A program made the translations under genes and the position numbers. 64,000 bases of DNA, taken from contig JBDUUL010000010.1 of NCBI GenBank assembly GCA_039938515.1, positions 62,001 through 126,000 of the forward strand. The letters run 5' to 3'. The DNA comes from Nitrososphaera sp. GTDB lineage: Archaea > Thermoproteota > Nitrososphaeria > Nitrososphaerales > Nitrososphaeraceae. Positions 23,553-45,215 of this stretch are shown in pieces; the stretch's first letter is position 1, and each line of letters opens with the position of its first letter. Below the pieces are notes generated by a model. The model made no database searches. It was not told the DNA's origin and saw only the letters and a list, made by a program, of their open reading frames with translations.

Positions 23553-24614
23553 CTAGGCGCCGGCTGTATTTTCTATTCTTCTTAGTTTGTATATTGCAAT
23601 TGAGACCAGCCAAGAAACAGCAAATATCCCAATTAATGCATAGCCTAGGGTCTCAAAGTCGAGATTAGCAAGCCAGGTCCAAAATGTGCCAGCAAGCTTC
23701 AACTGGCCTGATAGAACCTGCAACAGTTCGACGCCGCCTATAACAAGGGCTACGAGCACCGAGATTATCGTAATTGTTAGGTTGTAGTAGACCTTGCGGA
23801 TGGGCTTGACAAATGCCCATCCATACGCTAGTCGCATAGTTACCGAGTCTAAAGTGTCGACGAGCACCATCCCACAAGTGAACATGAATGGAAGAATAAG
23901 GATCATCCACATGGGGATAGTTGATGAGACCCCAATTCCCACACTGATCGCAATAAGTGCGACCTCACTTGCAGTGTCAAATCCAAGACCAAACAGTATT
24001 CCTACTGGGTAGATCTGCCACGGCTTCCTCACGAGTTTGAACAAAGGACCAAAATATCGGACAAGAATCCCACGCTTATTCAGTAGTTCTTCAAGATGAA
24101 CGGCGTCAAGGTTGCCTGCATGTACCTGCTTGTAGACTCGATACACGCCTGCTGCTATCGCCACATTAACTATTCCGATGGCGGCGAGGAACCCACCCGA
24201 AATGCTAGTGCCTATGGTGCTCCCAATGCTCTGAAGGCTTGGGATCTCTCCAGCGATCGCTCTGGTCGACACGATCAAGGCAACAACCAACAAGATGACT
24301 ATAGTCGAATGACCAAGCGAGAACCATGTTCCCACTGTCAGCGGCCGCTTGCCTTCTTGCATCAATTTTCTTGTCGTATTATCGATAGCGGCTATATGGT
24401 CGGCATCAACTCCGTGTCGCAGTCCAAAAACAAAGGCGGCTATGCCAAGCCCAGCAAGTGGCAATGAAAGGTTGCCTATCAAGTATGAGGCCGCAAAGCC
24501 AAGCACAGTTGCTGCAACAATTGGAACGAAGAGCAGAATTATTCTGGATTTTTCGCCAGCTGTAAGTCCAACGAGCGAAGTTCTCCGTTCTCGAGAACCA
24601 GCGTGCGGCGCCAA
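23553..24614 (-). CDS. NiCoT-family nickel/cobalt permease, copy 1 (island)
   Basis: This is a HoxN/NixA-type secondary transporter that brings Ni2+ (or Co2+) through the cell membrane. About eight hydrophobic helices are visible. The family signature in helix II reads RHGVDADHIAAID, with the metal-binding His and Asp residues intact, followed by SLGHSTIV. The start is TTG. It lies directly downstream of nikR on the same strand, so it is the expected NikR target and the nickel source for the nearby urease. A close copy lies at 48807. Val in the signature is the HoxN-like state; the second copy has Phe. Confidence 0.9.
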   Translation of the reverse strand: MAPHAGSRERRTSLVGLTAGEKSRIILLFVPIVAATVLGFAASYLIGNLSLPLAGLGIAAFVFGLRHGVDADHIAAIDNTTRKLMQEGKRPLTVGTWFSLGHSTIVILLVVALIVSTRAIAGEIPSLQSIGSTIGTSISGGFLAAIGIVNVAIAAGVYRVYKQVHAGNLDAVHLEELLNKRGILVRYFGPLFKLVRKPWQIYPVGILFGLGFDTASEVALIAISVGIGVSSTIPMWMILILPFMFTCGMVLVDTLDSVTMRLAYGWAFVKPIRKVYYNLTITIISVLVALVIGGVELLQVLSGQLKLAGTFWTWLANLDFETLGYALIGIFAVSWLVSIAIYKLRRIENTAGA

Positions 24615-24831: not shown

Positions 24832-25320
24832 CTATACCTTTGTGACAAAATTCACCTTTAGGCTCTTTATTCCCCTGTTCTCAGACAGCCGCCTTGCCAG
24901 CTCCTTTATTCTCTTGACTCTGCCTCTTACCATTATTGCCTCAAGGCAATTATCATGGTCAAGATGAAGGTGTGTAGTGGCACCGATTACCTCGCTGAAG
25001 AGGTGTTGAATGTCGGCCATCGCAGAGTCCTGATTGTACGAGTGATTGTCATATAGCAGTGTAATTACACCTGCTCCGTCTAGAGTGTCGTCAGCATTGC
25101 TCCACTCGTAATGGTCAACAAAAGAATGGAGTGCGGTCTGGATTGCTTTGGACCTGTCGCTAAATCCGGCTCTGCTCATGCTTTTGTCAAATTCTAAAAG
25201 CAGCGCAGGCGGAAGCGACATGCTGATTCGTCTTACCCCTTTCCTGTCGTTCGTTCTGCTTTTGCCACTATTCTTATGCTCATGCGAGCCGTTTTTGCCC
25301 ACGGTTATGCTTGGTTGCAA
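24832..25320 (-). CDS. nikR: Nickel-responsive regulator NikR
   Basis: An N-terminal ribbon-helix-helix (RRISMSLPPALLLEFDKSM...SDRSKAIQTAL) is followed by an ACT-like metal-binding domain. All four high-affinity nickel ligands of E. coli NikR have counterparts: a His in DIQHLF, the two His of HLHLDHDN and the Cys of NCLE, with the 11-residue spacing between the first two kept. The first 30 residues are a charged extension. NikR tetramers bind DNA when loaded with nickel and normally repress nickel uptake. It lies between the urease genes and the permease gene. Confidence 0.92.
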   Translation of the reverse strand: MQPSITVGKNGSHEHKNSGKSRTNDRKGVRRISMSLPPALLLEFDKSMSRAGFSDRSKAIQTALHSFVDHYEWSNADDTLDGAGVITLLYDNHSYNQDSAMADIQHLFSEVIGATTHLHLDHDNCLEAIMVRGRVKRIKELARRLSENRGIKSLKVNFVTKV

Positions 25321-25396: not shown

Positions 25397-27121
25397 TTAG
25401 AACAGATTATACAACCTTGATAGTGAGACCCTGTCTGCAACTCCAACCGTTGCGATTTTGCCATCCACTTTAACCTCGTATGTCTCAGGGTCAATCTCTA
25501 TCTCTGGAGTCAGGTCATTATACAGCAAGTCCTTCTTGCCGATTCTGCGACATCCTTTGACAGGCAACAACTTCTTGGCCAGACCAAGCTTTTTCGCAAT
25601 CCCATTCTTGATGGCAAGCTTGGAAGTAAATGTCACTGATGTCGTGGCACTAGCCCTTCCAAAGGCGCCAAACATTGGCCTATAGTACACCGGCTCCGGT
25701 GTGGGAATGGACGCATTCGGATCGCCCATTAGCGAAAATGCAATCATTCCTCCCTTAATTACCATTTTGGGCTTGAGTCCAAAAAATTGTGGTGTCCATA
25801 CAACAATGTCTGCAATTTTACCGGGCTGGATGGAACCGACGTAGTCTGAAATACCATGCGTAATGGCGGGGTTTATTGTCAGTTTGGCAAGATAGCGCTT
25901 CACCCTGAGATTGTCGTTGTCAACCTTACCTCTTCCCTTCTTCTCCCTGTCAAGCCTGCCCGTTAACTTTTTCATTTTGTCTGCGGTCTGCCATGCCCGG
26001 GCGCTTACCTCGCCGACCCTGCCCATCGCTTGGCTATCCGACGAATACATACTCAGTGCTCCTATGTCATGCAGAACGTCTTCTGCGGCTATTGTTTCCA
26101 TTCTAATTCTTGACTCCGCGAATGCGACATCCTCAGGCACTGATGGGTTAAGGTGGTGACAGACCATCATCATGTCAAGATGCTCATCAAGCGTGTTGAC
26201 AGTAAATGGCCTCGTAGGGTTCGTTGAAGAAGGCAGAATGTTCTGCTCGCCTGCGATTTTCATTATGTCTGGTGCATGACCACCACCAGCTCCTTCGGTA
26301 TGATAAGTGTGAATAGTTCTACCTGCAATCGCTTCTATGGTGTCGTCTACAAACCCGCATTCATTGAGCGTATCACTGTGAATTGCGACCTGCGTGTCAG
26401 TTTTGTCGGCCACTCTGAGCGCTGCATCAATGGTAGCAGGAGTAGTTCCCCAATCCTCGTGCAACTTCAAACCACACGCGCCTGCTGCTATTTGTTCAAC
26501 AAGCGACACCTCAAGAGAGTCATTGCCCTTGCCAAGGAAGCCAAAGTTCATTGGCATCGCGTCCACGGATTCGAGCATCCTTGCAATATTCCAGATGCCC
26601 GATGTGCACGTTGTGGCGTTTGATCCATCAGTGGGACCAAAACCTCCGCCAATCATGGTAGTGGTACCGGCGCAGATCGCCTCGATTACCTGCTGAGGCG
26701 AGATAAAGTGAATGTGCGTATCGATAACTCCGGGCGTGCAGATAGTATGTTCGCCGGAAATCACATCAGTGCCTGAGCCTACTATCATGTCCACGTTGTC
26801 AGAGATGTCGGGGTTTCCAGCCTTACCCACGCCGGCAACGATACCGTTCTTGATGCCGATATCGGCCTTGATTATTCCAAGCAAAGGATCCATTACAATG
26901 GCATTGGTAATAACAAGGTCCAACACCTGGCTCGATTTCTTGCCACTTGATTGGCCCATGCCATCCCTTACGCTTTTTCCGCCGCCAAATACGAGCTCGT
27001 CGCCATAACCAACCAGATCCTTCTCAATTTCTATTAGTAGGTCGGTGTCCGCTAACCGCACGCAATCACCAACAGTCGGCCCGAAAAGGTCAACGTACCG
27101 CTTGCGCGTGATCTCAAGCAC
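25397..27121 (-). CDS. ureC: Urease alpha subunit (catalytic)
   Basis: Urease splits urea into ammonia and carbamate with a di-nickel centre. The 574 residues match the usual length. Nickel ligands are visible in order: THIHF, the carbamylated Lys of GLKLHEDW, His in VAIHSD, His in the GGGHAPD region and the Asp of [10 protein letters not shown]. The mobile flap with MVCHHLNP, which carries the flap Cys and the catalytic His, is intact. The start overlaps the end of ureB by eight bases, so C, B and A form one operon in the order A-B-C. In this organism the ammonia would supply both biomass and ammonia oxidation. Confidence 0.97.
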
Positions 27122-27488
27122 CTTTGTATCCTCTCCTCCTTGCGCGGGATATTGCCGAAGCCTTGTTTGTGGCCAAGGACCCGTTTACAAGGCCGCCAAA
27201 GCCATAGACCCTTCTCTTCCCGGAAAACTCTGTCAGTTCGACTTCCTTTGTCTCACCCGGCTCAAACCTTATTGAAGTGCCGGACGGAATATTGAGCCTG
27301 AAGCCATATGCCTTGACTCGCTGGAAATTCAAAGCCTTGTTGACCTCAAAGAAATGCGTGTGCGAGCCAACCTGAACGGGCCTGTCGCCAGTATTACTTA
27401 CCTGAAGTCTTGTAGTCTTCCGGCCAGGGTTTGCAATTATCGGCTCGTCCGAAATAATATATTCGCCTGGAATCAAGCTCCGATCCAT
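27114..27488 (-). CDS. ureB: Urease beta subunit
   Basis: The small structural subunit of urease, a beta-barrel that packs on UreC. The family pattern is clear: [11 protein letters not shown], then [36 protein letters not shown] and [10 protein letters not shown]. The length of 124 residues is typical, with a short basic tail. It overlaps ureC by eight bases and follows ureA by 37 bases. Confidence 0.96.
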
Positions 27489-27525: not shown

Positions 27526-27828
27526 TTACACTATCGGGTCATGCACGGTTACGAGCTTTGTTCCGTCCTCAAAAGTTGCCTCTACCTGCACTGACCTTAT
27601 CATTTCGGGAACTCCTTGAAGAACATCGGTTCGTGAAAGAACTGCTCTGCCTGAGCTCATGAGTTCCGATACGGACCTGCCATCCCTAGCGCCTTCCAGG
27701 ATATGATCCGATATCAGCGCAACAGCCTCAGTGTAATTGAGCTTGAGTCCTCTCTCTTTTCGCCGGAGTGCCACTTGGGCCGCTACAAAAATGTACATCT
27801 TGTCAATTTCTCTGGGAGCGAGCATCAT
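27526..27828 (-). CDS. ureA: Urease gamma subunit
   Basis: The smallest urease subunit, 100 residues, begins with the family start [13 protein letters not shown] and contains [25 protein letters not shown] split over two helices, then [14 protein letters not shown] and the closing HDPI. It is the first gene of the ureABC operon and starts about 30 bases after a TATA box, facing away from ureE. A diverged second gamma-like protein is encoded at 33664-34062. Confidence 0.96.
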
Positions 27829-27888: not shown

Positions 27889-28473
27889 GTGCCAAAATTG
27901 CGAGCAGACCCCAAATTGCCTGGAGGTCGCATGTCTCCCAAGCAGAATCCGGCAGTAGTAAATGCAATAGTCGGCAATATCTTCGAGGACAGGTCGCTAC
28001 TGCTGAAACTTCAAAGAATGAAACGCCTAAGGCGCCATGAAGCCCTCAGGCTAACCAGAGAGGAAATGCAAAAACTCAGGCTCAGAAGAAGGACAGCAAG
28101 AGGCACTGAGATTCTTATCGATCTTCTGTCTAGGCTACCTCTCCGCAATGGCGACGTGCTAGAAGAAAGCCGCAATCGATTGATTTCGATCGAGCAGAAG
28201 CCCGAGCTCGTAGTGGGAGTAATGCTCAAAAGAGCGGTGTCGATGCCTGAAACCTTGATACGGATTTCCGGCCTTGTAGGCCATGCCGTCGGAAATAGAC
28301 ACAGGTCAATAGCTATCCGCCACCGGACAATCTACTTTCCAGTTATGAATGAGGCTGACGCGACCGCATTTAGAAAGGTTCTTGCGCCATTTAAAAAACA
28401 AACAAGGGTTCGAATTACAAGAGTTGTGTTGACGGCGGAGGACCTAGGGGGTGGCAACCATTCGCACACCTAA
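27889..28473 (+). CDS. ureE: Urease accessory protein UreE (nickel metallochaperone)
   Basis: UreE delivers nickel to the urease-UreDFG complex. The metal-binding core is visible as GHAVGNRH in the C-terminal domain, the usual site with the conserved His at the dimer interface. The protein ends in GGNHSHT, so the long His-rich tail of bacterial UreE is missing. The N-terminal half is unusually Arg-rich (LQRMKRLRRHEALRL). The start is GTG and the end overlaps ureF by 23 bases. The lack of a His tail is notable because the nearby chaperonin has His-rich parts. Confidence 0.9.
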   Translation: MPKLRADPKLPGGRMSPKQNPAVVNAIVGNIFEDRSLLLKLQRMKRLRRHEALRLTREEMQKLRLRRRTARGTEILIDLLSRLPLRNGDVLEESRNRLISIEQKPELVVGVMLKRAVSMPETLIRISGLVGHAVGNRHRSIAIRHRTIYFPVMNEADATAFRKVLAPFKKQTRVRITRVVLTAEDLGGGNHSHT

Positions 28474-29182
28474 CCTTGACAGTCACGAACTGGCAATGAT
28501 GCAGTTGTCAGATTCGTTCTTTCCGTCAGGGATGTTTGGCATGTCTGGTGGTCTTGAGTCCATGGCTAAGGCGAATTGGATTAAGGATAAGAAAGCGGTC
28601 AGTGAGTTCTTACATCAGCAAATCCTCTTTCAAATTGTGCCGTGCGACTGCATGGCGTTTTCAATCGCAATAGATGCCGCAAGAAAAGGTGATCTTCGAT
28701 TAGCCGTCAAAGTTGACCATGCATACCTCGCAATGAAACTTGTGTCAGAAGTCCGGTTGGCATCGGTGCGCTCAGGCAGGCAGCTGCTTAAAAGTGTCCT
28801 GCAGGTTTCAAGAATAAAGTTTGCATCCCAGTTTAATGAAAAGATAGACACTGGTAAGGCAGAGGGCTCTTATCCAGTCTGTATGGCGATTGCCGCGACT
28901 GCATTTGACATCCCAAAGACAAGCGCCTTGCGCATAGTACTCTATACCTATTGCACATCCATTACCGCCGCAGCTGTGCGCCTTGGACTCTTGGACCACA
29001 TTGAAGCCCAGACTGTCCTGAAGCAAATGCATCAACTGATTAATTCAGAAGCCATCCGCGCATCAGATCCAAAATTTAGCAAGAACGCCGACCCATTATC
29101 GATTCTGTGGCAGCTAAGCCCGCTTGTAGACATTGCTCAAATGCTGCACGAACGCGACGAACTACGAATGTTTATTACTTGA
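28451..29182 (+). CDS. ureF: Urease accessory protein UreF
   Basis: UreF is an all-helical scaffold that, with UreD and UreG, opens apo-urease for activation. Family marks: MMQLSDSFFPSGMFGMSGGLES near the N-terminus (QLSDSxFP...G.S.GLE), a central CDCMAFSIA helix and a closing region with SPLVDIAQMLHE. The 243 residues are normal in length. It overlaps ureE, and only 25 bases separate its stop from the chosen start of ureG. Confidence 0.92.
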   Translation: MATIRTPNLDSHELAMMQLSDSFFPSGMFGMSGGLESMAKANWIKDKKAVSEFLHQQILFQIVPCDCMAFSIAIDAARKGDLRLAVKVDHAYLAMKLVSEVRLASVRSGRQLLKSVLQVSRIKFASQFNEKIDTGKAEGSYPVCMAIAATAFDIPKTSALRIVLYTYCTSITAAAVRLGLLDHIEAQTVLKQMHQLINSEAIRASDPKFSKNADPLSILWQLSPLVDIAQMLHERDELRMFIT

Positions 29183-29207
29183 TCGAATAAAGTGTCTGCG
29201 AAGCCAA

Positions 29208-29951
29208 ATGAAGAGGGCTGGAGTTGCTCCAAAGGCGCGTATTCCACGCGTTGGCGTAGGTGGACCGGTGGGATGCGGAAAAACTCGGCTTATTGAGGTA
29301 ATTGTACCGCTTTTGAGCAGTCAAGGGTATCGCTGCTGCATTATTTCAAATGACGTGGTGTCAAAGGAGGATGCGGTGCGAATGAGGCGAATTCTAGCCA
29401 CAGAGGCTCACATCATGCCTGAAGAGTTGATAATCGGAATCGCTACCGGCGGCTGCCCGCACACCGCTATTCGCGAGGATCCGTCAGTAAACTTGGCCGT
29501 AATTGATGAAATAGAACGAAAGGACCCTTTGCTTGACTTGATCTTAATTGAGAGCGGTGGTGACAACACTATGACTACATTCAGTCCTGCCCTCGCAGAC
29601 TATTTTATTTACATTGTAGACGTCGCGGGCGGCGACAAGTATCCGCGTAAAAGGGGACTTGGAATTGAAAGTTGCGACCTTCTCGTCGTAAACAAGGTGG
29701 ACCTTGCACCTTTCGTTGGCGCGGATATCGAGGCAATGATTCGTGACGCTAGGATTGTGAGGAATGGGAAACCGTTTGAGTTTATTGATTGCAAATCAGG
29801 AGCAGGAGTAGAGAAAGTCGTCAGGCACATCGTTCGTGATGTTCTGTTTGACGCGCCAGCAAAAAAGAGTAATGACGGAGCTTTAAGTCATACTGCTGGC
29901 TCTAAAAAAGCGTCACAAAGACAAGGCATGCATGCAAAAAAACCTCGCTAG
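29208..29951 (+). CDS. ureG: Urease accessory GTPase UreG
   Basis: UreG binds GTP and nickel and drives nickel insertion. I use ATG 29208 because the protein then starts just before the first strand (RIPRVGVGGPVGCGKT), whereas the longer frame overlaps ureF with unlike residues. The P-loop GPVGCGKT, the metal motif CPH (GGCPHTAIRED), the switch region IESGGDN and the base-recognition NKVD are all present. A polar tail of about 35 residues, rich in Lys, Ser and His, is appended. Confidence 0.95.
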   Translation: MKRAGVAPKARIPRVGVGGPVGCGKTRLIEVIVPLLSSQGYRCCIISNDVVSKEDAVRMRRILATEAHIMPEELIIGIATGGCPHTAIREDPSVNLAVIDEIERKDPLLDLILIESGGDNTMTTFSPALADYFIYIVDVAGGDKYPRKRGLGIESCDLLVVNKVDLAPFVGADIEAMIRDARIVRNGKPFEFIDCKSGAGVEKVVRHIVRDVLFDAPAKKSNDGALSHTAGSKKASQRQGMHAKKPR

Positions 29952-29962
29952 GCAGACCTGCT

Positions 29963-30889
29963 TTGAATCACAACACATCCAGATCGGACACCGATTTTAC
30001 AGCCGAAGCCGGCTTTCTGAAGCTGAGCCTGGCTCCAAGCTCGCAATTGCCTTATTCAAATCGACCAAAGACCACAATTAAATGCGCTGAATCAAAAGCG
30101 CCGTTGCTTATTCAAAGAGCGTTATATCCTGAACCTTCATACCCGTTTCTTGCACACATTTACATGATGTCTTCAGCAGGCGGAATCCTGCAGGGTGATC
30201 GGCTGAACATCTCAATAGAGTCCGAACCTCACTCATACGCCTCTGTAACGACTCAAGCGTCTACCAAAATCTATAGAATGGATCGAGGCTATGCCACCCA
30301 ACAAATCTCTCTACGCATAAATAAAGACGCTTACCTTGAATTCCTGCCGCATTCGAACATTCCCTATAAAGGCTCAAAATTTCACCAAACCACATCTATA
30401 CAAGCTGACACTGGCTCGGTGCTAGTCTATTCTGAAACAATGTCTGCTGGCAGGATAGCTTTTGGCGAGAGATTTGACTTCAATTCGCTTGAGCTACAGA
30501 TAACGGCACGGCATTCTTCAGGCAAGCTGTTGTTTCATGATAGTTCGAAGTTCAGATCCATGCGGAATGCTGGGCAAAGTTTCAATCATGCTGCACAGCT
30601 TGACAAGCTATTTGGAAAAAGGGACATTCTGTCTACCGTCTACATTGTGAGCCCTTCATCCGACCAAACTCTCACTGGGTTAGACGAAGATTTCTTCCAG
30701 CTCCTGCAAACCGAGCGTGAATTTATTGCTAAATGTGGTTCTTCGGCAAAGAGCGCATTTATTTCAGGAATTTCTTCATTACCCAATAACTCAGGCCTTG
30801 TTATTAGGATGCTCTCGAATTCGATTGATCAAATCGAAAGCGTCATTAGCAGAGTTTCACGCATATGCCGCAAACAATTTCTTTCCTGA
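29963..30889 (+). CDS. ureD: Urease accessory protein UreD (UreH)
   Basis: UreD is the beta-sheet-rich scaffold that contacts apo-urease and passes nickel from UreG. Motifs SSAGGILQGDRL, VTTQASTKIYRM and LEFLPHSNIPYKGSKF are those of the family. The 308 residues are slightly longer than usual. The start is TTG, 11 bases after ureG, and it ends the ureEFGD operon. Codon third positions look AT-rich compared with genes left of the island. Confidence 0.92.
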   Translation: MNHNTSRSDTDFTAEAGFLKLSLAPSSQLPYSNRPKTTIKCAESKAPLLIQRALYPEPSYPFLAHIYMMSSAGGILQGDRLNISIESEPHSYASVTTQASTKIYRMDRGYATQQISLRINKDAYLEFLPHSNIPYKGSKFHQTTSIQADTGSVLVYSETMSAGRIAFGERFDFNSLELQITARHSSGKLLFHDSSKFRSMRNAGQSFNHAAQLDKLFGKRDILSTVYIVSPSSDQTLTGLDEDFFQLLQTEREFIAKCGSSAKSAFISGISSLPNNSGLVIRMLSNSIDQIESVISRVSRICRKQFLS

Positions 30890-31364: not shown

Positions 31365-31619
31365 CTAGAGTGGAGCCATTGTGTCTATAAGACGCGCGTT
31401 TGTAACCAGACCGTCCTTTTCCTGTATTATGAGGTCCACTGTGTACTGCATACCTCCTAGCATGAAGGTGGTCTGGACGTCCCAGGAATCGCGGTTCAGT
31501 TCACTCGGAAACGGAAACAGCACTCTAATCTTAAAGTCTCTGATGTCTGAGCCGTAAAGGGATTGGATGGCGCTCCGCGAGGCCTTTTCGATCTCCACGT
31601 TAGATTTGACTGGGTTCAT
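31365..31619 (-). CDS. Small hypothetical protein under a urea-type promoter
   Basis: From ATG 31619 the protein has 84 residues with a helix (EIEKASRSAIQSLYG) and three or four strands (FKIRVLFPF, VQTTFMLGGMQYTVDLIIQEKDG). The end is NARLIDTMAPL. The family is unknown. It starts 15 bases after a TTACTAA motif next to a TATA element, the same arrangement as ureA, the ureohydrolase, the ParB-like gene and the SSS permease, so it is probably part of the same response. Confidence 0.6.
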   Translation of the reverse strand: MNPVKSNVEIEKASRSAIQSLYGSDIRDFKIRVLFPFPSELNRDSWDVQTTFMLGGMQYTVDLIIQEKDGLVTNARLIDTMAPL

Positions 31620-31633
31620 AACCAATTATATAG

Positions 31634-31808: not shown

Positions 31809-33656
31809 TTGGTTTTGATTCAAAAGAATGCAATCCAACGAATACTTGGAGAAGACGTCAAACGTTCAAGCGGTCAAGACGCTAGACGCTCCAATCTTCT
31901 AGCAGCCCGACTCATTGCGGAACTCATGAAGAACTCCCTAGGCCCGCGCGGACTTGAAAAAATGTTTGTCGATATAATGGGCGAGGTGACCGTGACAAAA
32001 GACGGCGCTACGCTGCTTCGCAAAATTGATGTTGAACATCCTGCGGCAAAAGTCCTCATAGAAGCTTCAAACTCTGTTGATAATGAAGTTGGCGACGGCA
32101 CAAAAGCTGTCGTTGTGGTCATTGGAGCTCTACTGGAAAAGGCCGAAGAAATGCTCGACAAAGGTATCTCTCCTGCCATGATTATTGACGGCTACCAGAG
32201 TGCCCTAGAGCTGGCTCTTGTGGAACTGGAGAATCTGGCAGAAAAACATGCCGGTCCCGATAAGGACACGATGGGCCGCCTGGTGCAAACTAGTCTTGAC
32301 TCAAAATCGCTGGGGCCTGCGGTAAAGAACGTTACTGACATGATCGTTGACGCTGCACTTTCAGTTGCTGATTCCAGTCGCAAGAGCATTGATGTCGACA
32401 ACATCAAGATTGAGCAAAAACTCGGAGACATGTCGATGACACAGCTCATTAAGGGAATGGTCGTTGACAAAACTATAGACAGTTCATCAATGCCAAAGAG
32501 CATTGAAAAAGCCAGGATAATGCTCATTGATGACGATCTTGAAGGCAGAACTACAAGGACTGGATCGCAAATTAACATCAATTCGCCGAAGCTAATGATG
32601 TCTTTCAAAAAAGAGGAAACTGAAGAAATTCGATCCAAAGTCAAACATATCATAGAGTCCGGGGCAAATGTTGTTTTCTCAAGGAAGGGAATAAACACAC
32701 TTGCGCAGCACTTACTTGCCAGAGAGGGAATCATTTCTGTTAGAAGGGTAAAAGAGAATGATCTTCTCTGGCTTGCCAGGGCGACGGGGGCATCTATCGC
32801 AGCAAGGCTAGACCATGAGCATGAGGTTCACTATGGTTCAGACGGTCATGACCATGATCACCACAGTCACGAGCACAAACATGCTCACACTCATTCGGAA
32901 AGATACTCCACGCGCCACGACGATTTCCATCCTCACTATCATCACGGGGATATCGATATTAAACTTGGATTTGCTGAACGGGTTTCTGAGCGAGTAATAG
33001 GTGACGATAGAATGGTGTTCGTCGAAAGCTGCAGGAACCCAAGGGCTGTTACGATTCTGTTGCGAGCGGGTTCAAAGCGCACTCTCGATGAGTTCCAGCG
33101 CTCAACAATTGACGGCATATCTGTTCTGAGAGACTATTTTACCAAACCTGCAATCATCTCAGGAGGGGGATCAGCCGAAGCTGCCATTGCGAAAAGGCTC
33201 AGGAATACTGCAAACTCGATTCCTTCCCGGGAGCAAATCGTCCTTTCAATGTTCGCAGACGCGCTTGAGGAAATTCCTCTCACCCTGGCTAGAAATGCCG
33301 GCATGGACGTCATTAACACGCTTGCTACGCTACGACACGAGCATCGCGACGATAATAGGGGCCACACCGGTAGGGGCAAAACATATGGAGTAGACGTATT
33401 CGGAAGAAAAGTCTCACAAATGTATCCTGCAGTGGTAGAACCCGTTCTTGTCAAGGAACAGGTGCTCAAGACAGCCACCGAGGTCGCAAACCTGTTACTC
33501 CGAGTAGATGATGTCCTAATGGCGAAGCCTGCAATGAACACGCACACACATGCAAATGGGACTACACACTCTCATGGAGGCGGAGATAAGGCGCATCAAC
33601 ATGACTATTTTGACCGACTAGGAAAGATGCAGCGGCCAAGCCACCATTATTACTAG
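31809..33656 (+). CDS. Histidine-rich thermosome paralogue (group II chaperonin)
   Basis: The whole group II chaperonin fold is present: GPRG, KDGATLL, GDGT, the hydrolytic Asp of STIDGI, SGGGSAE and NAGMDV. It differs from the canonical subunit at 43572 in two additions. A loop in the apical domain, residues about 336-379, has 17 His in 44 residues (HDHDHHSHEHKH and neighbours). The C-terminus, residues about 577-613, adds eight more His. The usual GDGTT is GDGTK. Placed between urease accessory genes and a ureohydrolase, it may bind nickel or help fold nickel enzymes; this is inference. The TTG start follows a TATA-like CATAAATAC. Confidence 0.92.
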   Translation: MVLIQKNAIQRILGEDVKRSSGQDARRSNLLAARLIAELMKNSLGPRGLEKMFVDIMGEVTVTKDGATLLRKIDVEHPAAKVLIEASNSVDNEVGDGTKAVVVVIGALLEKAEEMLDKGISPAMIIDGYQSALELALVELENLAEKHAGPDKDTMGRLVQTSLDSKSLGPAVKNVTDMIVDAALSVADSSRKSIDVDNIKIEQKLGDMSMTQLIKGMVVDKTIDSSSMPKSIEKARIMLIDDDLEGRTTRTGSQININSPKLMMSFKKEETEEIRSKVKHIIESGANVVFSRKGINTLAQHLLAREGIISVRRVKENDLLWLARATGASIAARLDHEHEVHYGSDGHDHDHHSHEHKHAHTHSERYSTRHDDFHPHYHHGDIDIKLGFAERVSERVIGDDRMVFVESCRNPRAVTILLRAGSKRTLDEFQRSTIDGISVLRDYFTKPAIISGGGSAEAAIAKRLRNTANSIPSREQIVLSMFADALEEIPLTLARNAGMDVINTLATLRHEHRDDNRGHTGRGKTYGVDVFGRKVSQMYPAVVEPVLVKEQVLKTATEVANLLLRVDDVLMAKPAMNTHTHANGTTHSHGGGDKAHQHDYFDRLGKMQRPSHHYY

Positions 33657-33663
33657 TTGTTGA

Positions 33664-34062
33664 TTAAACCAGGGGTTGAAAGTCCGACGATGCGTTCGAC
33701 AGCCGAATGGGCGAGTCTATCTTCAACCGCACAGGAGCCTCGCCATCGACAGCAGCCTCGATCAACAGCTGTTGTAGTGACTCTGGAACACCTATCAGAA
33801 CAGATTCGTGAGATAGGATCACTCTTGCCTGTCTTTCAATTTCAGCGGGCGCTATGCTCGCCCGCAGTCCATTAACAGCATACGAACAATACAACAATAT
33901 CGACTCATTGACATTGAGCTTCAACCCGCGATCGAGTTTTTCCTTAACCGCGATGGCGCTCCTAAAAAAGATCTCCTCATCAGATCCGTTTTCAAAACTC
34001 ATTGTCCTCAAAAGAGGAGGGACGTCAGGCTCTCCCTTTATGATCGCTCTGACGTGAATCAT
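33664..34062 (-). CDS. Orphan urease gamma-like (UreA-like) protein
   Basis: Residues about 35-125 align with UreA of this window: EKLDRGLKLNVNESILL matches [16 protein letters not shown], then ARVILSHESVLIGVPE matches [14 protein letters not shown], and the end has LKIDSPI against VHDPI. A 30-residue N-terminal extension is added. The standard UreA start (LxPREIDK) is missing. No second ureB or ureC accompanies it. It lies 10 bases upstream of the ureohydrolase-type gene's end-side on the same strand and faces the thermosome paralogue. It could modify urease or serve the ureohydrolase. The homology is clear by eye, the role unknown. Confidence 0.75.
   Translation of the reverse strand: MIHVRAIIKGEPDVPPLLRTMSFENGSDEEIFFRSAIAVKEKLDRGLKLNVNESILLYCSYAVNGLRASIAPAEIERQARVILSHESVLIGVPESLQQLLIEAAVDGEAPVRLKIDSPIRLSNASSDFQPLV
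33694..33707 (+). repeat. Dispersed 14-base element, copy 2
   Basis: GTTCGACAGCCGAA, here inside the 3' end of the UreA-like gene and about 40 bases after the stop of the thermosome paralogue. Confidence 0.55.
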
Positions 34063-34071
34063 ATCTAGAAC

Positions 34072-35217
34072 TCACTTTGACTTCTTGGCATATTCCAGTG
34101 GAGCCCTCTTAGGGACCTTCGCCTTCGGCCCGTTGCCAAAGTCATATGTGTGACCTTGGCCACGGTAAAGCTTTGGACGCACAGGCTTGCCTTCACTCTT
34201 GCCCTTCTTGGTCAAAGATAGTCCTGCCATCAGCTCAACGATGAGCCTGTTTGCAAGACCAGAAGTGATGCCCCCGTTGTATGAATTTCCATCACTTACG
34301 TCATAATTAGGCGCCACTTCTACCAAGTCAAACGCAAACCTGTCAGGATCAAATGAGGTTGAGAGTAGTCTCATAAGCCTCATGCCTTCTCTTGAGGTCA
34401 GACCGTTTGGCTCCGGCTCGCCAGTGCCCGGTGCATATGCCGGATCGAAGGTGTCAATGTCCCAGCTGATGTAGACTGCATCGACATTGTCATTTGCCCT
34501 GTCAGCAGCTTCTTTTGCTATCCTGTCAATTCCAAGTTCCTCTACATCTAGCATGGTAAACCATTGAAAGTCCTGGTCAGCCATCCATTTGTACAAATCC
34601 GGACCGGGCCAATAGCCACGCGGGCCGATGAGTGTGTAGTTCTTGCCCTTCAGGCATCCAAGTTCCATGATCCTTCTTATGTGCGCGCCGTGGTCGTACT
34701 TGAAGCCGCAGAGTCCCTGGGGCGCGCAATCTGCGTGTGTGTCAATGTGAATCATTCCAATGTTTTTGTACTTTTTCGAAAATGCTCGAACATTTGCAAA
34801 TGTAATCGAGTGGTCGCCTCCAAGCATAACAGGGATGCCGTCGATGTCGAGGACTTCCTTCACTTTGTCGGTCATCCTTCTGTGCGATTCTACAACGTCT
34901 CCAGGAGATACTACGACATCGCCATAATCTACAGTTTTGAAGACTCCAAAGGGATCGACTCCGGTCTCAATGTTGAAGTGTTCGTAAGGCGGAGAGGGCA
35001 CTGTCGATGCGGCTCTAATGGCGCGCGGACCGTATCTGGCGCCTGGCCTGATTGTGGTCCCAAAGTCAAACGGTTCGCCGATAATTGCGATGTCTGGCTT
35101 TACCTTCTTTAGTTCATCTCTGCTTCTTACCCAAGGCAATTTCAGAAAGGTGGGGATTCCCACAAAAATTGGTTCGTCATTGCCTTTGTACGAGTCTCCG
35201 TAAAATTCCATTCCCAT
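34072..35217 (-). CDS. Arginase/agmatinase-family ureohydrolase, possibly guanidine hydrolase
   Basis: The di-metal motifs of the family are complete: GGDHS, DTHAD (in place of the usual DAHxD) and DIDTFDPAYAPGTGEPEP. At 381 residues it is longer than agmatinase (about 300), with about 40 extra residues in front (FVGIPTFLKLPWVRS) and a basic tail. The family releases urea from agmatine, arginine, guanidinobutyrate or, in the Ni-dependent GdmH of Synechocystis, from guanidine itself. The longer N-terminus and the nickel/urease surroundings favour a GdmH-like role, but agmatinase remains possible. Promoter: TATA, two TTAGTAA copies, then the ATG. It ends 10 bases before the UreA-like start. Confidence 0.85.
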   Translation of the reverse strand: MGMEFYGDSYKGNDEPIFVGIPTFLKLPWVRSRDELKKVKPDIAIIGEPFDFGTTIRPGARYGPRAIRAASTVPSPPYEHFNIETGVDPFGVFKTVDYGDVVVSPGDVVESHRRMTDKVKEVLDIDGIPVMLGGDHSITFANVRAFSKKYKNIGMIHIDTHADCAPQGLCGFKYDHGAHIRRIMELGCLKGKNYTLIGPRGYWPGPDLYKWMADQDFQWFTMLDVEELGIDRIAKEAADRANDNVDAVYISWDIDTFDPAYAPGTGEPEPNGLTSREGMRLMRLLSTSFDPDRFAFDLVEVAPNYDVSDGNSYNGGITSGLANRLIVELMAGLSLTKKGKSEGKPVRPKLYRGQGHTYDFGNGPKAKVPKRAPLEYAKKSK

Positions 35218-35301: not shown

Positions 35302-36054
35302 TCAGCGCTTTAACTGCTTGGCAAGCAAAGTCCTGACGTACTGCGTCACTTCTAGGCCATTTTCATTTGCATATTCGTTCAGCCTATCCCACAAATCTTT
35401 GTCAACTCTGTTTCGGGGGTCAAACACTAACCTGATTGTGAGCAATCCTTTTGGCGCTCCACGCTTGACGCCAGCTTTCGACATTTCTTCTTGAAGAGTT
35501 CCCGAGCGTGCTGCAGAAACAAGCCTTTCTTGAACAGACTTGGGTTTGCGGGCTATCTTTATAGCCTCAAAAGCAGTGATTTGGCCTTTTTCTATGTTTT
35601 CTTGAAGCGCTTCGGGCAAATTAAGGATGCTTAGCCATTCGCTAACGGTGCTCTTGGGAAGGCCATACTTTAGCGCAACCTTAGTTATGCCCCCGTCAGT
35701 GGAATCAACTAGCCTCTTCACCATCCTTCCTTTCTCGATCGGCGACAAGTCCTTGCGAACAAGATTCTCAAATAACGACGCAGCCTCTGCTTCGGCTCCT
35801 TCGAGCTCTGTTATTACAGCAGGAATCTCGCGCTCGCCCTTCGCGCTGAGAGCAAAGTAGCGACGTCTGCCAATGAGCAGCTTATACCGTTTGCTTTCAT
35901 CGTCAAACCTGACGACGACTGGCTGAAGCAAGTCAAATTTTGCGAGATGTTCTTTCATTAGGTGATCTTTATCGTCCTCTCCAAAGGAGTGATCCTTACG
36001 AACATTCTCATTTGCAATGTCTATCAGGTTGATCGGAATCGTCTTTATCTTCAT
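35302..36054 (-). CDS. ParB-like DNA-binding protein
   Basis: I take ATG 36054 (MKIKTIPINLIDIANENVR). Residues about 1-95 form the ParB/Srx-like domain with the nucleotide-binding box LIGRRRYFAL and ENLVRKDLSPIEKG. Residues about 105-150 form the helix-turn-helix (ITKVALKYGLPKSTVSEWLSIL). A C-terminal domain (LTIRLVFDPRNRVDKDLW...QYVRTLLAKQL) resembles a ribbon-helix-helix. ParB proteins bind parS-like DNA; some, such as KorB, act as regulators. No ParA lies beside it (the ParA-like gene is at 60 kb). Its own promoter carries TTACTAA, and four palindromic elements lie around it. Confidence 0.85.
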   Translation of the reverse strand: MKIKTIPINLIDIANENVRKDHSFGEDDKDHLMKEHLAKFDLLQPVVVRFDDESKRYKLLIGRRRYFALSAKGEREIPAVITELEGAEAEAASLFENLVRKDLSPIEKGRMVKRLVDSTDGGITKVALKYGLPKSTVSEWLSILNLPEALQENIEKGQITAFEAIKIARKPKSVQERLVSAARSGTLQEEMSKAGVKRGAPKGLLTIRLVFDPRNRVDKDLWDRLNEYANENGLEVTQYVRTLLAKQLKR

Positions 36055-36063
36055 AGCAACCAA

Positions 36064-36592: not shown

Positions 36593-36614
36593 AGTTCGAC
36601 AGTCGAACTTTTTT
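36591..36614 (+). terminator. Palindrome plus T run (dispersed element, copy 4)
   Basis: AAAGTTCGAC-A-GTCGAACTTT is a perfect 10-base stem with a one-base centre, followed by T residues, immediately after the stop codon at 36592. It contains the perfect form of the dispersed GTTCGACAGYCGAAC element (36594-36608), so it may be a terminator, a protein-binding site, or both. Confidence 0.55.
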
Positions 36615-36685
36615 GGCGGAAGAGCCCGCCTTCGTTAACCCAGAGGAGGCAAAAGTTTTATATATATTTAATATTATAATGAAGT

Positions 36686-36811
36686 GTGGATATTTCGGGA
36701 GTCTTGGCAACGTTTGCCGTCATTCTCGCAGCAAGCGGATTCTTCCTCTTCATGGGTACAGTGGGTCTAAAGAGCGACAAGAAAGAAGACGAGATGCACA
36801 AGGCGGAGTAG
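36686..36811 (+). CDS. Single-helix membrane microprotein
   Basis: A 41-residue protein from GTG 36686 (MDISGVLATF) to TAG 36811. Residues about 5-27 are hydrophobic (LATFAVILAASGFFLFMG) and the C-terminus is charged (KSDKKEDEMHKAE). A strong TATA run (TTTATATATA, about 36657-36666) lies about 25 bases before the GTG, so the mRNA should be leaderless. This frame fits the promoter better than the longer overlapping frame of the TPR gene. Confidence 0.6.
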   Translation: MDISGVLATFAVILAASGFFLFMGTVGLKSDKKEDEMHKAE

Positions 36812-36870
36812 CTCTTTTTGATCATACCCACATGCGAAGGCGCGACCATCAGGGAAGGTTTGATTTAGAC

Positions 36871-37386
36871 ATGGTTCTAGGATGGCTCCGCGGCAAAGGC
36901 GCCAAGCCGTCGAAAGAACCGGTTGTTCGGAAGGTGGATAGGAAAACTGCGTCTGACGAGTGGGTAAAACATGGCGAGGATCTGGCTAACTCAAATAGGC
37001 CTGAGGAAGCTATCCAGGCTTTTGACAAGGCCATAGAAATTCTTCCGCAGAACGCGTATGCATGGGGCGACAAGGCGCTCATGCTCGATAAACTCGGCCG
37101 CACTGACGAGGCGTTGATCGCGTTTGCAAGGTCAACAGAGATCGATTCAAGCAGCGCTATTACGTGGAATAACAAGGGTTTGACGCTTTTGAAAGCCGGC
37201 AAGTTTGCTCAAGCGGTTGAATCCTTTGACAAGGCAATCGAGTGCAATGGAAAGTATGCAAAAGCATGGTACAACAAGGGAAGGGCACTTACAATGTTAA
37301 ACAAAGTCAGCGATGCGCAGCGATGCTTTGATGTTGCTCGAAAAATGGATCCGTTGCTGTTTGCAAAATTGAAAAAGATGCACTAG
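36871..37386 (+). CDS. TPR-repeat protein
   Basis: From ATG 36871 (MVLGWLRGKG) the protein has 171 residues with three to four tetratricopeptide repeats, for example AIQAFDKAIEILPQNAYAWGDKA, split by the usual 34-residue period, then AVESFDKAIECNGKYAKAWYNKG. TPR arrays bind other proteins. The frame upstream of this start runs through the membrane microprotein gene and is not protein-like. Partner unknown. Confidence 0.8.
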   Translation: MVLGWLRGKGAKPSKEPVVRKVDRKTASDEWVKHGEDLANSNRPEEAIQAFDKAIEILPQNAYAWGDKALMLDKLGRTDEALIAFARSTEIDSSSAITWNNKGLTLLKAGKFAQAVESFDKAIECNGKYAKAWYNKGRALTMLNKVSDAQRCFDVARKMDPLLFAKLKKMH

Positions 37387-43571: not shown

Positions 43572-45215
43572 TTATCGCGATGTTGCGGAAAGTATATCGT
43601 CGATCCTCAGTAGCATTGCAGTCGTTTCGGTAGCTGATTTTAGAATCTGCTCCTTGACCGACAATGGCTCAATGACATTCTTTTTGCGCATATCCGCAAC
43701 CTTCAGGCCTCTTACATCTATCCCTATCCATGGATTGTTCTCTTCCGATTGTCTTGAGTGCAACCCTGCAATACTATCAATTATGTCCATGCCTGCGTTC
43801 TCTGCAAGTGCAATTGGAATCGATTCCAGTGCGTCGGCATATGCCAGAATGGCATAGTGCTGCCTGCCAGAAACGCTAGAAGCCCATGCCCTCAGCTTTC
43901 TTGATACGAATGCTTCCGGCGCGCCTCCACCTGCGACGATTCCCGGCTTTTGCATGACGTCTTTTACAACCATCAGGGCATCATGCATCGAGCGATCGAC
44001 CTCGTCGACAACCTTCTCCGAGCCGCCTCTTATCAAAATCGACACGGCCTTTGGGTTCTTGCATTTCTCAACAAACACCCATTTGTCGTTCTCCACCTTT
44101 CGCTCTTCGACATACTGTGCAGAACCAAGGTCCTTTGATGACGCATTCTCTGGATTTGACACGACGCTTGCGCCTGTCGCTTTTGCCAGGGCTCCCATAT
44201 CTGATTCCTTTACCCTTTTTATTGCCAGGATGCCTGCCTTTGCGAGATACTCTAGAACTGTGTCATCTATTCCTTTTTGACAAAACAAAACGTTTGCCTT
44301 TGTTTGGGATACCTTGTCAGCCATCGATTTCAGCATTCTGATTTCCTCGTCTATGAACATCTTCATTTGGCCTGGCTGGCTTATCGTGATTTTGGCGTCG
44401 AACTCTGTCTTTTCTATTTCCAGAGGAGTGTTTAGGAGTAGAATCTTGGCGTCTTTGGCAAATCGAGGCATTGCAGGGTGGGCAATCTCTTTGTCAATAA
44501 TGATGCCTTTTACCAATCTCGAATCGCGCATCGAACCTCCGGACTTTTTTTGAATCTTTACATTGTCAAGATCGATTTTGGCGTAGCTGCTATCATCGGT
44601 GATTTCCTCCGACTGTGAAGAGGGGGCCTCAGCTACTGCAAGCACGGCTCCGACTGCCAGCTTTGACAGCACATCGCTGTCTACTGATACAATCTTGGAT
44701 TCCATACTGGTCCTTGCAATGTTTTCAAGGATTGAATGGTCGCCATCCAGCTTTACGTCTTCTGCTACTTTATTCAAAATATCCAAAGCCTGTGCCAAAG
44801 CCTTCCTATATCCATCCACCACTACCGTGGGATGAATGCCCTGCTTGACCAGATCCGCTGCCTTTTCCAGCAGCGCTCCCGCTATTATTACGGACGAAGT
44901 AGTTCCGTCGCCTGCTTCATTATCCACGGCCTTTGCGATTTCGACCATCATTTTTGCTGCCGGATGCTGCACGTCCATCTCCTTCAGGATGGTTGCGCCG
45001 TCATTTGTGATAGTTACGCCGCCCGTAGAATCAACAAGCATCTTGTCCATCCCTCGTGGGCCCAGAACGCTCCGCAGCATAGACGCGACGATTTTGGCCG
45101 CTGAAATATTGTTGTTTAGTGCTTCCCTTCCCCTCGTTTGGGAAGCCCCTTCCTTCAAGAGAAGTATTTGCGTTCCATCTCTTGTTGTTCCCACTATGGA
45201 TAATGATGATGACAT
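43572..45215 (-). CDS. ths: Thermosome subunit (canonical group II chaperonin)
   Basis: This ATP-driven folding machine forms a double ring with a built-in lid. At 547 residues it has the standard length and motifs: LGPRGMDKMLVD, TNDGATIL, GDGTTSSV, the hydrolytic Asp in MHDALMVVKD, GGGAPE and AENAGMDIID. The apical loop that is His-rich in the island paralogue is short here (NPENASSKD). It does not carry the Gly/Met-rich tail of many thermosomes. It is transcribed alone towards the island. Confidence 0.95.
   Translation of the reverse strand: MSSSLSIVGTTRDGTQILLLKEGASQTRGREALNNNISAAKIVASMLRSVLGPRGMDKMLVDSTGGVTITNDGATILKEMDVQHPAAKMMVEIAKAVDNEAGDGTTSSVIIAGALLEKAADLVKQGIHPTVVVDGYRKALAQALDILNKVAEDVKLDGDHSILENIARTSMESKIVSVDSDVLSKLAVGAVLAVAEAPSSQSEEITDDSSYAKIDLDNVKIQKKSGGSMRDSRLVKGIIIDKEIAHPAMPRFAKDAKILLLNTPLEIEKTEFDAKITISQPGQMKMFIDEEIRMLKSMADKVSQTKANVLFCQKGIDDTVLEYLAKAGILAIKRVKESDMGALAKATGASVVSNPENASSKDLGSAQYVEERKVENDKWVFVEKCKNPKAVSILIRGGSEKVVDEVDRSMHDALMVVKDVMQKPGIVAGGGAPEAFVSRKLRAWASSVSGRQHYAILAYADALESIPIALAENAGMDIIDSIAGLHSRQSEENNPWIGIDVRGLKVADMRKKNVIEPLSVKEQILKSATETTAMLLRIDDILSATSR

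Follow-up and report, generated by a model that had tools for sequence, protein, structure and literature searches.

The window, meaning the whole stretch of 64,000 nucleotides of Nitrososphaera sp. DNA analysed here, encodes a thermosome paralogue whose C-terminal tail is rich in histidine. Judged from the sequences, this tail, rather than the ATP cycle, is the feature common to all members of the family to which the protein belongs, and the best co-inherited partner of the tail chaperonin is a ureohydrolase encoded in the same neighbourhood. What appears to be new here is a His-tailed chaperonin in group II that is conserved over two families (designated f1 and f9) and co-inherited with one enzyme. 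The original interpretation is partly supported: the window does have a paralogue of the thermosome that is distinct and His-rich and belongs to a urea/nickel island, and this protein is conserved in relatives and plausibly binds metal. The features of the window are collected in Table 1.

The chaperonin gene begins with a TTG start codon, with GGAGGT immediately 5' of it. Its product matches the Pfam profile Cpn60_TCP1 over the entire length (positions 1-490 of 490, E=1.5e-144), which bears out the complete group II fold that had been claimed. An AlphaFold model of the protein (mean pLDDT 77) gave Mm-cpn and thermosome structures as its top structural matches in Foldseek (E 7.6e-43 to Mm-cpn). 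Over the model, the solved group II chaperonins of archaea are 36-39% identical to the protein, and the alignment with 1q3r includes the lid region. The sequence reaches more than 500 bits with three archaeal thermosome models; NF041082 and NF041083 are passed and the cut-off of TIGR02339 (thermosome_arch) is missed, at 526.1 versus 671.1 bits. The GroEL model TIGR02348 gave 49.9 bits versus the 582.1 needed, and the protein is thus not of group I GroEL ancestry. The whole fold is shared with the canonical archaeal thermosomes (Mm-cpn, T. KS-1, T. acidophilum). However, these have a Gly/Met tail, whereas the window chaperonin has a His tail and misses TIGR02339, and most of its relatives lack one or both catalytic Asp residues. 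The protein contains 32 His, of which 17 are in an apical loop, 8 in the tail and 7 elsewhere, and the counts for loop and tail agree with those given originally. Both segments are of low confidence in the AlphaFold model. A second thermosome in the window (43572-45215, minus strand) scores 690 with TIGR02339, above the cut-off, and has neither the His loop nor the His tail, as had been noted. Its C-terminus is also without the usual Gly/Met tail.

Table 1. Coordinates of the chaperonin gene, its His-rich segments and the neighbouring genes in the window.
Feature	Coordinates	Strand	Basis or remark
NicO-family nickel transporter	23553..24614	-	Pfam
NikR	24832..25320	-	Pfam
UreC, urease alpha	25397..27121	-	ORF list, UreC search
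UreB	27114..27488	-	Named by position and gene order
UreA, urease gamma	27526..27828	-	PF00547, E=6.7e-45
ureE, ureF, ureG, ureD	27889..30889	+	Pfam
86-aa ORF, no Pfam family	31365..31625	-	In 24/28 named loci of at least 15 kb
His-tailed group II chaperonin (thermosome paralogue), 615 aa	31809..33656	+	ORF list, Pfam, Foldseek
Apical His loop, residues 336-379, 17 His in 44	32814..32945	+	Residues 338-381 with pLDDT <50
C-terminal tail, residues 571-615	33519..33653	+	Family-wide motif ending HHYY
UreA2, diverged urease-gamma-like, convergent with chaperonin	33664..34062	-	PF00547, E=1.7e-9
Ureohydrolase (arginase family)	34072..35217	-	Pfam; metal ligands align; PGTGEPEP motif
ParB-like and TPR proteins	35302-36063 and 36613-37386	- and +	Recur near ureohydrolase block
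Sodium:solute symporter (SSS), PF00474	37688..39265	+	Co-inherited with chaperonin and ureohydrolase

The eight His of the window tail from residue 571 (positions 579, 581, 587, 589, 596, 598, 612 and 613) have a binomial probability of about 2e-7 when a His background of 1.4% is expected, a value taken from the cores of relatives without the apical loop. The general tail motif is HxH..G..HxH...HxH...QR..HHYY. Among 61 genomes, the closest proteins share, beyond the fold, the common tail THTHxDGTxHSHxGG..HxHxxFDxLGKxQRPxHHYY, and in most of family f9 the tail reads NTHCHIDGTVHAH.DGG..HNHFEQEGLEQRQMHHYY. Of 400 genomes of the order, 88 matched a tail profile of 48 positions, and 51 of these 88 belong to f9; in a phylum set, 9 of 300 genomes matched, all of f1 or f9. 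The matches in the 400 genomes are mostly the end of a frame of 558-636 aa, with some contig-edge fragments, and among them no convincing tail was found outside chaperonins. Two odd matches were set aside, an extra half-tail in a 33-aa fragment of G359 and a weak match in a 115-aa frame of G363. The pattern HxH..G..HxH, which itself served to locate the tails, is kept in all 89 remaining tails, which come from all 88 profile-positive genomes. The third HxH pair is present in 88 of the 89, the fourth-from-end His in all 89 and the next His, before YY, in 82, with Gln in the other 7. His accounts for 23.7% of the tail residues but only 1.4% of those in the core. The invariant His of the tail are encoded by both CAT and CAC codons, which indicates selection on the residues and not a DNA repeat.

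A scan of one genome per species, which rested on one peptide pattern, returned 128 stretches, 61 of which were confirmed and 67 of which were not. All 61 confirmed contigs are titled Nitrososphaerota. The genera among the named contigs are Nitrososphaera, Nitrosocosmicus, Nitrosotalea, Nitrosarchaeum, Nitrosopumilus, Nitrosotenuis and Cenarchaeum, all of which we take to be ammonia oxidizers. A set of 84 full-length proteins was used for the tree and the residue counts; it includes two copies from G348 and excludes G147, G193, G281, G359 and G397, which have no full-length protein. In a tree calculated with the tails removed, all 84 form one clade with a long stem (support 0.847), and outside this clade are nine ordinary thermosomes and nine divergent Hsp60s. 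These Hsp60s are 22-25% identical to the window chaperonin, have no His tail and end in KR or RR. Their genes lie between ureC and ureE of a second type of urease operon in archaea, found at nine loci (L101-L104, L112, L113, L117-L119). By score, G014 and G015 each contain one UreC gene of either operon type, two in all. Also, ten Nitrosotalea-like f9 members are placed within the f1 sequences in the tree, and those of their loci that were read have the same ureEFGD-chaperonin order, which suggests lateral transfer of the island.

In excerpts of their paper, Abby et al. (2018) describe an 'Hsp60 homolog' that is conserved in the urease loci of ammonia-oxidizing archaea and absent from Nitrosopumilales (PMC5797428). 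Its position makes this homolog presumably the divergent Hsp60 between ureC and ureE. Both it and the tail chaperonin are chaperonins of ammonia-oxidizer urease loci; however, the low identity of the Hsp60, its lack of a tail and its place outside the tail clade make the tail chaperonin another family. The tail chaperonin would also be present in Nitrosopumilales, if f9 is Nitrosopumilaceae as the contig titles suggest. Two easily confused chaperonin families at archaeal urease loci are now told apart.

The apical loop, in which 17 His in 44 residues have a binomial probability of about 1e-20 at the same background, had been put forward as a key feature of the protein. It is found in only 8 of the 84 full-length members, all of the window's genus and forming one clade (support 0.993), a single Nitrososphaera lineage. 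Its length in the eight carriers is hypervariable, with 31-62 residues and 13-17 His, and the loop edge HYHH.DI is kept in all eight. In the other 76 members, where the tail persists, the loop has 10-13 residues and at most one His, and the loop was rejected as a family-wide feature. In addition, it is absent from three urease-bearing members of the window's genus (G013, G014 and G015), in which urease genes lie within 10 kb of the loop-less chaperonin. Absence of the insertion from close relatives with urease had been named originally as a refutation, and the importance given to the loop is thus refuted. By sequence, the loop replaces what lies between residues 335 and 343 in 1q3r, an apical-domain loop that we take to be distinct from the lid protrusion.

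Co-inheritance was analysed in the 400 genomes of the order, with cuts set beforehand for the ureohydrolase (1e-70) and the SSS transporter (1e-100). The ureohydrolase was found in 92 genomes, SSS in 83, the tail in 88 and UreC in 151 (E <1e-10, which dropped 42 of 193 rows; a curated cut-off counts 141). Expressed as both/first only/second only/neither, the counts were 81/7/11/301 for tail and ureohydrolase (phi 0.87), 73/15/10/302 for tail and SSS (phi 0.82) and 79/9/72/240 for tail and UreC (phi 0.57). In the 209 good genomes (completeness of 90% or more, contamination of 5% or less) the counts for tail and ureohydrolase were 55/1/4/149; the exceptions are G024, G038, G111 and G160, with the ureohydrolase and no chaperonin, and G282, with the reverse. 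Both states occur within one genus in 13 genera, as judged by eye (g1, g2, g6, g8, g12, g20, g32, g35, g44, g48, g49, g55 and g56), so the pattern is not one old split. Among single-contig genomes, G014 and G015 carry the module whereas G010 of their genus does not, and G029 and G036 differ from G018 in the same way.

Urease had been named as the partner of the chaperonin, and the expected co-occurrence was found; however, this association is loose and the ureohydrolase is a far better predictor. Seventy-two of the 151 urease-positive genomes have no chaperonin, and 65 of these 72 also have no ureohydrolase. Within the urease-positive genomes, the counts for tail and ureohydrolase were 73/6/7/65. 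Where the ureohydrolase is missing, the tail occurs in 6 of 71 urease-positive versus 1 of 237 urease-negative genomes (p=7e-4), and where it is present the association of tail and urease has p=0.03, although these Fisher p-values overstate significance because the genomes are related. Urease as the sole partner was rejected as the best correlate.

The 61 named loci, many of which end at contig ends, comprise 37 with the ureohydrolase, 15 with urease genes and no ureohydrolase, and 9 with neither. In 21 of the 37 the ureohydrolase is convergent with the chaperonin, at a distance of 330-1563 bp, and in 19 of the 61 it is present without ureC, ureE or ureG. For the 28 loci of at least 15 kb, SSS was found in 26, the ureohydrolase in 19 and UreC in 18. 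Two classes of SSS occur among the matches, 78-83% and 48-60% identical to that of the window. NikR was found in none of the 61 named loci and NicO in six, yet NikR adjoins the chaperonin in L065 and L066. In the window, the genes reported originally (ureEFGD, a ureohydrolase, nikR and a nickel permease) were all confirmed by Pfam. The UreA-like gene, which had not been mentioned, stands between the chaperonin and the ureohydrolase, and two small minus-strand ORFs separate ureD from the chaperonin. A UreA2-like gene adjoins the ureohydrolase in both families. Most loci have the 86-aa ORF together with the chaperonin or with the urease cluster, L105 among them although it has no chaperonin match, and the ParB-like and TPR proteins occur in 19 and 17 of the 61 named loci.

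Full-length matches to the window ureohydrolase are 79-95% identical to it: 90-95% in f1 and the Nitrosotalea-like f9 members, 79-88% in all other f9 members, and 80% in G038, which belongs to a third family. The nearest solved structures are the guanidinobutyrase 3nio (3.6e-51), which we take to be a manganese enzyme, the comammox guanidinase 9fek (1.7e-47) and the cyanobacterial guanidinase 7esr/7oi1 (5.8e-47). Both guanidinases contain nickel. Excerpts of the guanidinase literature state that nickel-loading chaperones were co-expressed for the Synechocystis enzyme, and that the comammox enzyme has manganese besides nickel, no nickel-loading protein having been found in those genomes (PMC11410670). 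Such a chaperone is thus not always required. The same excerpts give T105 and W313 as the specificity residues of the N. inopinata guanidinase (PMC11410670). In the window ureohydrolase the metal ligands and the specificity Thr align, and the position of the guanidinase Trp is Glu, as it is, within PGTGEPEP, in 44 of 44 distinct ureohydrolase sequences. Identification as a guanidinase was rejected at this position. Since the top match is a guanidinobutyrase and Glu replaces the Trp, the ureohydrolase sequence does not imply nickel. The cut-off of the agmatinase model TIGR01230 was also missed (154.3 versus 174.3 bits). The guanidinase excerpts report no guanidine degradation genes in ammonia-oxidizing archaea (PMC11410670), and part of a soil study describes a conserved and expressed 'agmatinase' beside an SSS transporter (PMC11131427), which is probably the same gene as the window ureohydrolase.

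The catalytic Asp residues are numbered here as D60 and D386 of Mm-cpn, by means of alignment offsets; D386A mutants appear in PDB titles. At the D386-like site, f1 has Asp in 25 members, Ser in 7 and Asn in 3, and f9 has Asn in 38 and Asp in 11. At the D60-like site, f1 has Asp in 33 members, Asn in 1 and Ser in 1, and f9 has His in 38, Asn in 6, Ser in 3 and Asp in 2. The D386-like Asp is lost in 48 of the 84 members, the D60-like Asp in 49 and at least one of the two in 58. In 38 members, which are 38 of the 49 full-length f9 proteins, both are replaced, by the same His/Asn pair. The nine ordinary thermosomes have Asp at both sites. The window copy retains both catalytic Asp, but has Lys after GDGT. 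The losses in most relatives suggest that the conserved role of the family is something other than folding driven by ATP.

Close to an even chance is given to the reading that the tail chaperonin binds metal and is devoted to the metallation or assembly of the ureohydrolase, and perhaps also of urease. The sequences show a lineage-specific group II subunit of ammonia-oxidizing archaea in which an invariant His tail stands in place of the Gly/Met tail, and which is inherited within a module of ureohydrolase, sodium symporter and UreA-like protein. In group II chaperonins the tails project into the central chamber. The metal bound by the His tails would be divalent and most likely Ni2+, and a ring or mixed ring would serve specifically to metallate and assemble the ureohydrolase, with urease as a possible further client where it is adjacent to the chaperonin. 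In the Nitrososphaera lineage of the window, the apical loop has turned into a second His-rich site. Nickel is favoured because of the company of urease, NikR and NicO in the window and the nickel in the nearest guanidinases. Against it stand the absence of NikR and the rarity of NicO in the named loci, and the manganese in the comammox guanidinase. The five exceptional good genomes, the urease signal that remains without the ureohydrolase and the 15 named loci with urease genes and no ureohydrolase speak against the reading as a whole. A more specific form of this reading, which we regard as somewhat unlikely, is that the cage was repurposed as a metal-loading chamber, in which ATP hydrolysis was lost in most members, a ring of about 16 invariant His tails concentrates nickel in the cavity and the enclosed new ureohydrolase is metallated. 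If true, it would be a new kind of metallochaperone and would account for the metal loading of some ureohydrolases, and if the chamber does hold metal, the role of chaperonins would extend from folding to metallation.

That the chaperonin stores or delivers nickel, as was originally predicted, and does so for urease, with tail and loop holding Ni2+ for UreE and UreG, is rather unlikely. The chaperonin does directly follow ureEFGD in L061, L064, L084, L088 and L092, UreC occurs in 79 of 88 chaperonin genomes, and the association with urease remains, weakly, after conditioning on the ureohydrolase. However, the urease genomes without a chaperonin include G010 and G018, 99% complete; UreC was not matched in two good genomes with the tail (G033 and G188); a different Hsp60 is encoded in the second type of urease operon; and no chaperonin match was found in eight f9 urease loci of tail-less genomes (L106-L110, L114-L116). 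Also, according to excerpts on H. pylori HspA, its His tail is needed for maturation of hydrogenase, not of urease (PMC3856676). An ordinary folding chaperonin for the proteins of the module, whose His tail is a client handle or structural element that binds no metal physiologically, would fit the strict co-inheritance if it were client-specific, and the window copy has the complete fold and both catalytic Asp. This explanation is doubtful in view of the His/Asn replacement of both Asp in most of f9 and of the second His-rich segment that one lineage acquired in this protein. In addition, paired HxH motifs, such as those of the tail, are typical metal ligands.

It is improbable that the protein is a general copper or zinc buffer and that its link with the ureohydrolase is merely genomic company. 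Ammonia oxidizers are copper-rich, which speaks for such a buffer, but copper enzymes are generally common to ammonia-oxidizing archaea and presence of the chaperonin tracks the ureohydrolase and not these enzymes; 149 of the 209 good genomes have neither chaperonin nor ureohydrolase. A model for such a buffer is mycobacterial GroEL1, the His-rich tail of which is described, in excerpts, as binding Cu(II) in a protein tied to copper homeostasis (PMC10170517). Drifting, functionless low-complexity sequence is a highly implausible account of tail and loop. The loop does have a hypervariable length and is confined to a single lineage, but its edge is kept in all carriers, and drift is contradicted for the tail by conservation across two families while the codons vary.

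Two group I systems are analogues of the tail chaperonin and not relatives, and we know of no link between one of them, GroEL1, and a ureohydrolase module. Excerpts describe GroEL1 as a paralogous subunit in which a His tail likewise replaces the Gly/Met tail and for which metal homeostasis over folding is predicted; it differs in being of group I, said to be monomeric and studied with copper (PMC10170517). The other, HspA of H. pylori, binds nickel in vitro and was proposed to be a nickel store and chaperone, and it shares with the tail chaperonin a place in the chaperonin system, a C-terminal extension (His/Cys-rich and metal-binding in HspA, predicted to bind metal in the tail chaperonin) and a urease-bearing organism. 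However, it is a GroES, a group I co-chaperonin and not a cage subunit, and the extension serves hydrogenase and not urease (excerpts of PMC3856676). The tail chaperonin has a C-terminal His-rich extension as these two proteins do, with metal binding predicted. In archaea, excerpts of a study of a hadal marine MAG describe an additional thermosome, separate in phylogeny, that is encoded close to urease and a Na+/solute symporter, and suggest that it helps under high pressure (PMC7265257). This thermosome probably belongs to the tail chaperonin family; the words 'histidine' and 'nickel' have no occurrences in the main text of that paper. The original view that such a chaperonin had not been described was thus too broad, given the published group I chaperonins with His-rich tails, the nickel-binding GroES and this extra thermosome in one marine MAG. 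No report of the His tail of this chaperonin was found in searches of the open-licence literature. Ammonia-oxidizing archaea are major nitrifiers, and their use of organic nitrogen beyond urea is a question touched by these results. The tie of the chaperonin to a very conserved ureohydrolase and a transporter makes both substrate and metal loading testable in cultured strains.

Lastly, the UreE of the window had been noted to lack its usual His tail, a lack for which the chaperonin might compensate. This UreE has two His in its last 30 residues, and the UreE frames of every locus read, except the fragments L089 and L099, have 2-5 His in the last 45 residues. The C-termini of UreE in the relatives read are as a rule short with or without the chaperonin, so compensation is not supported. 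In the UreE frame of L117 (G036), which has 246 aa and 39 His, a long His-rich tandem repeat separates the N-terminal from the C-terminal part. This is the only UreE seen with a long His insert, and its genome has the tail chaperonin.
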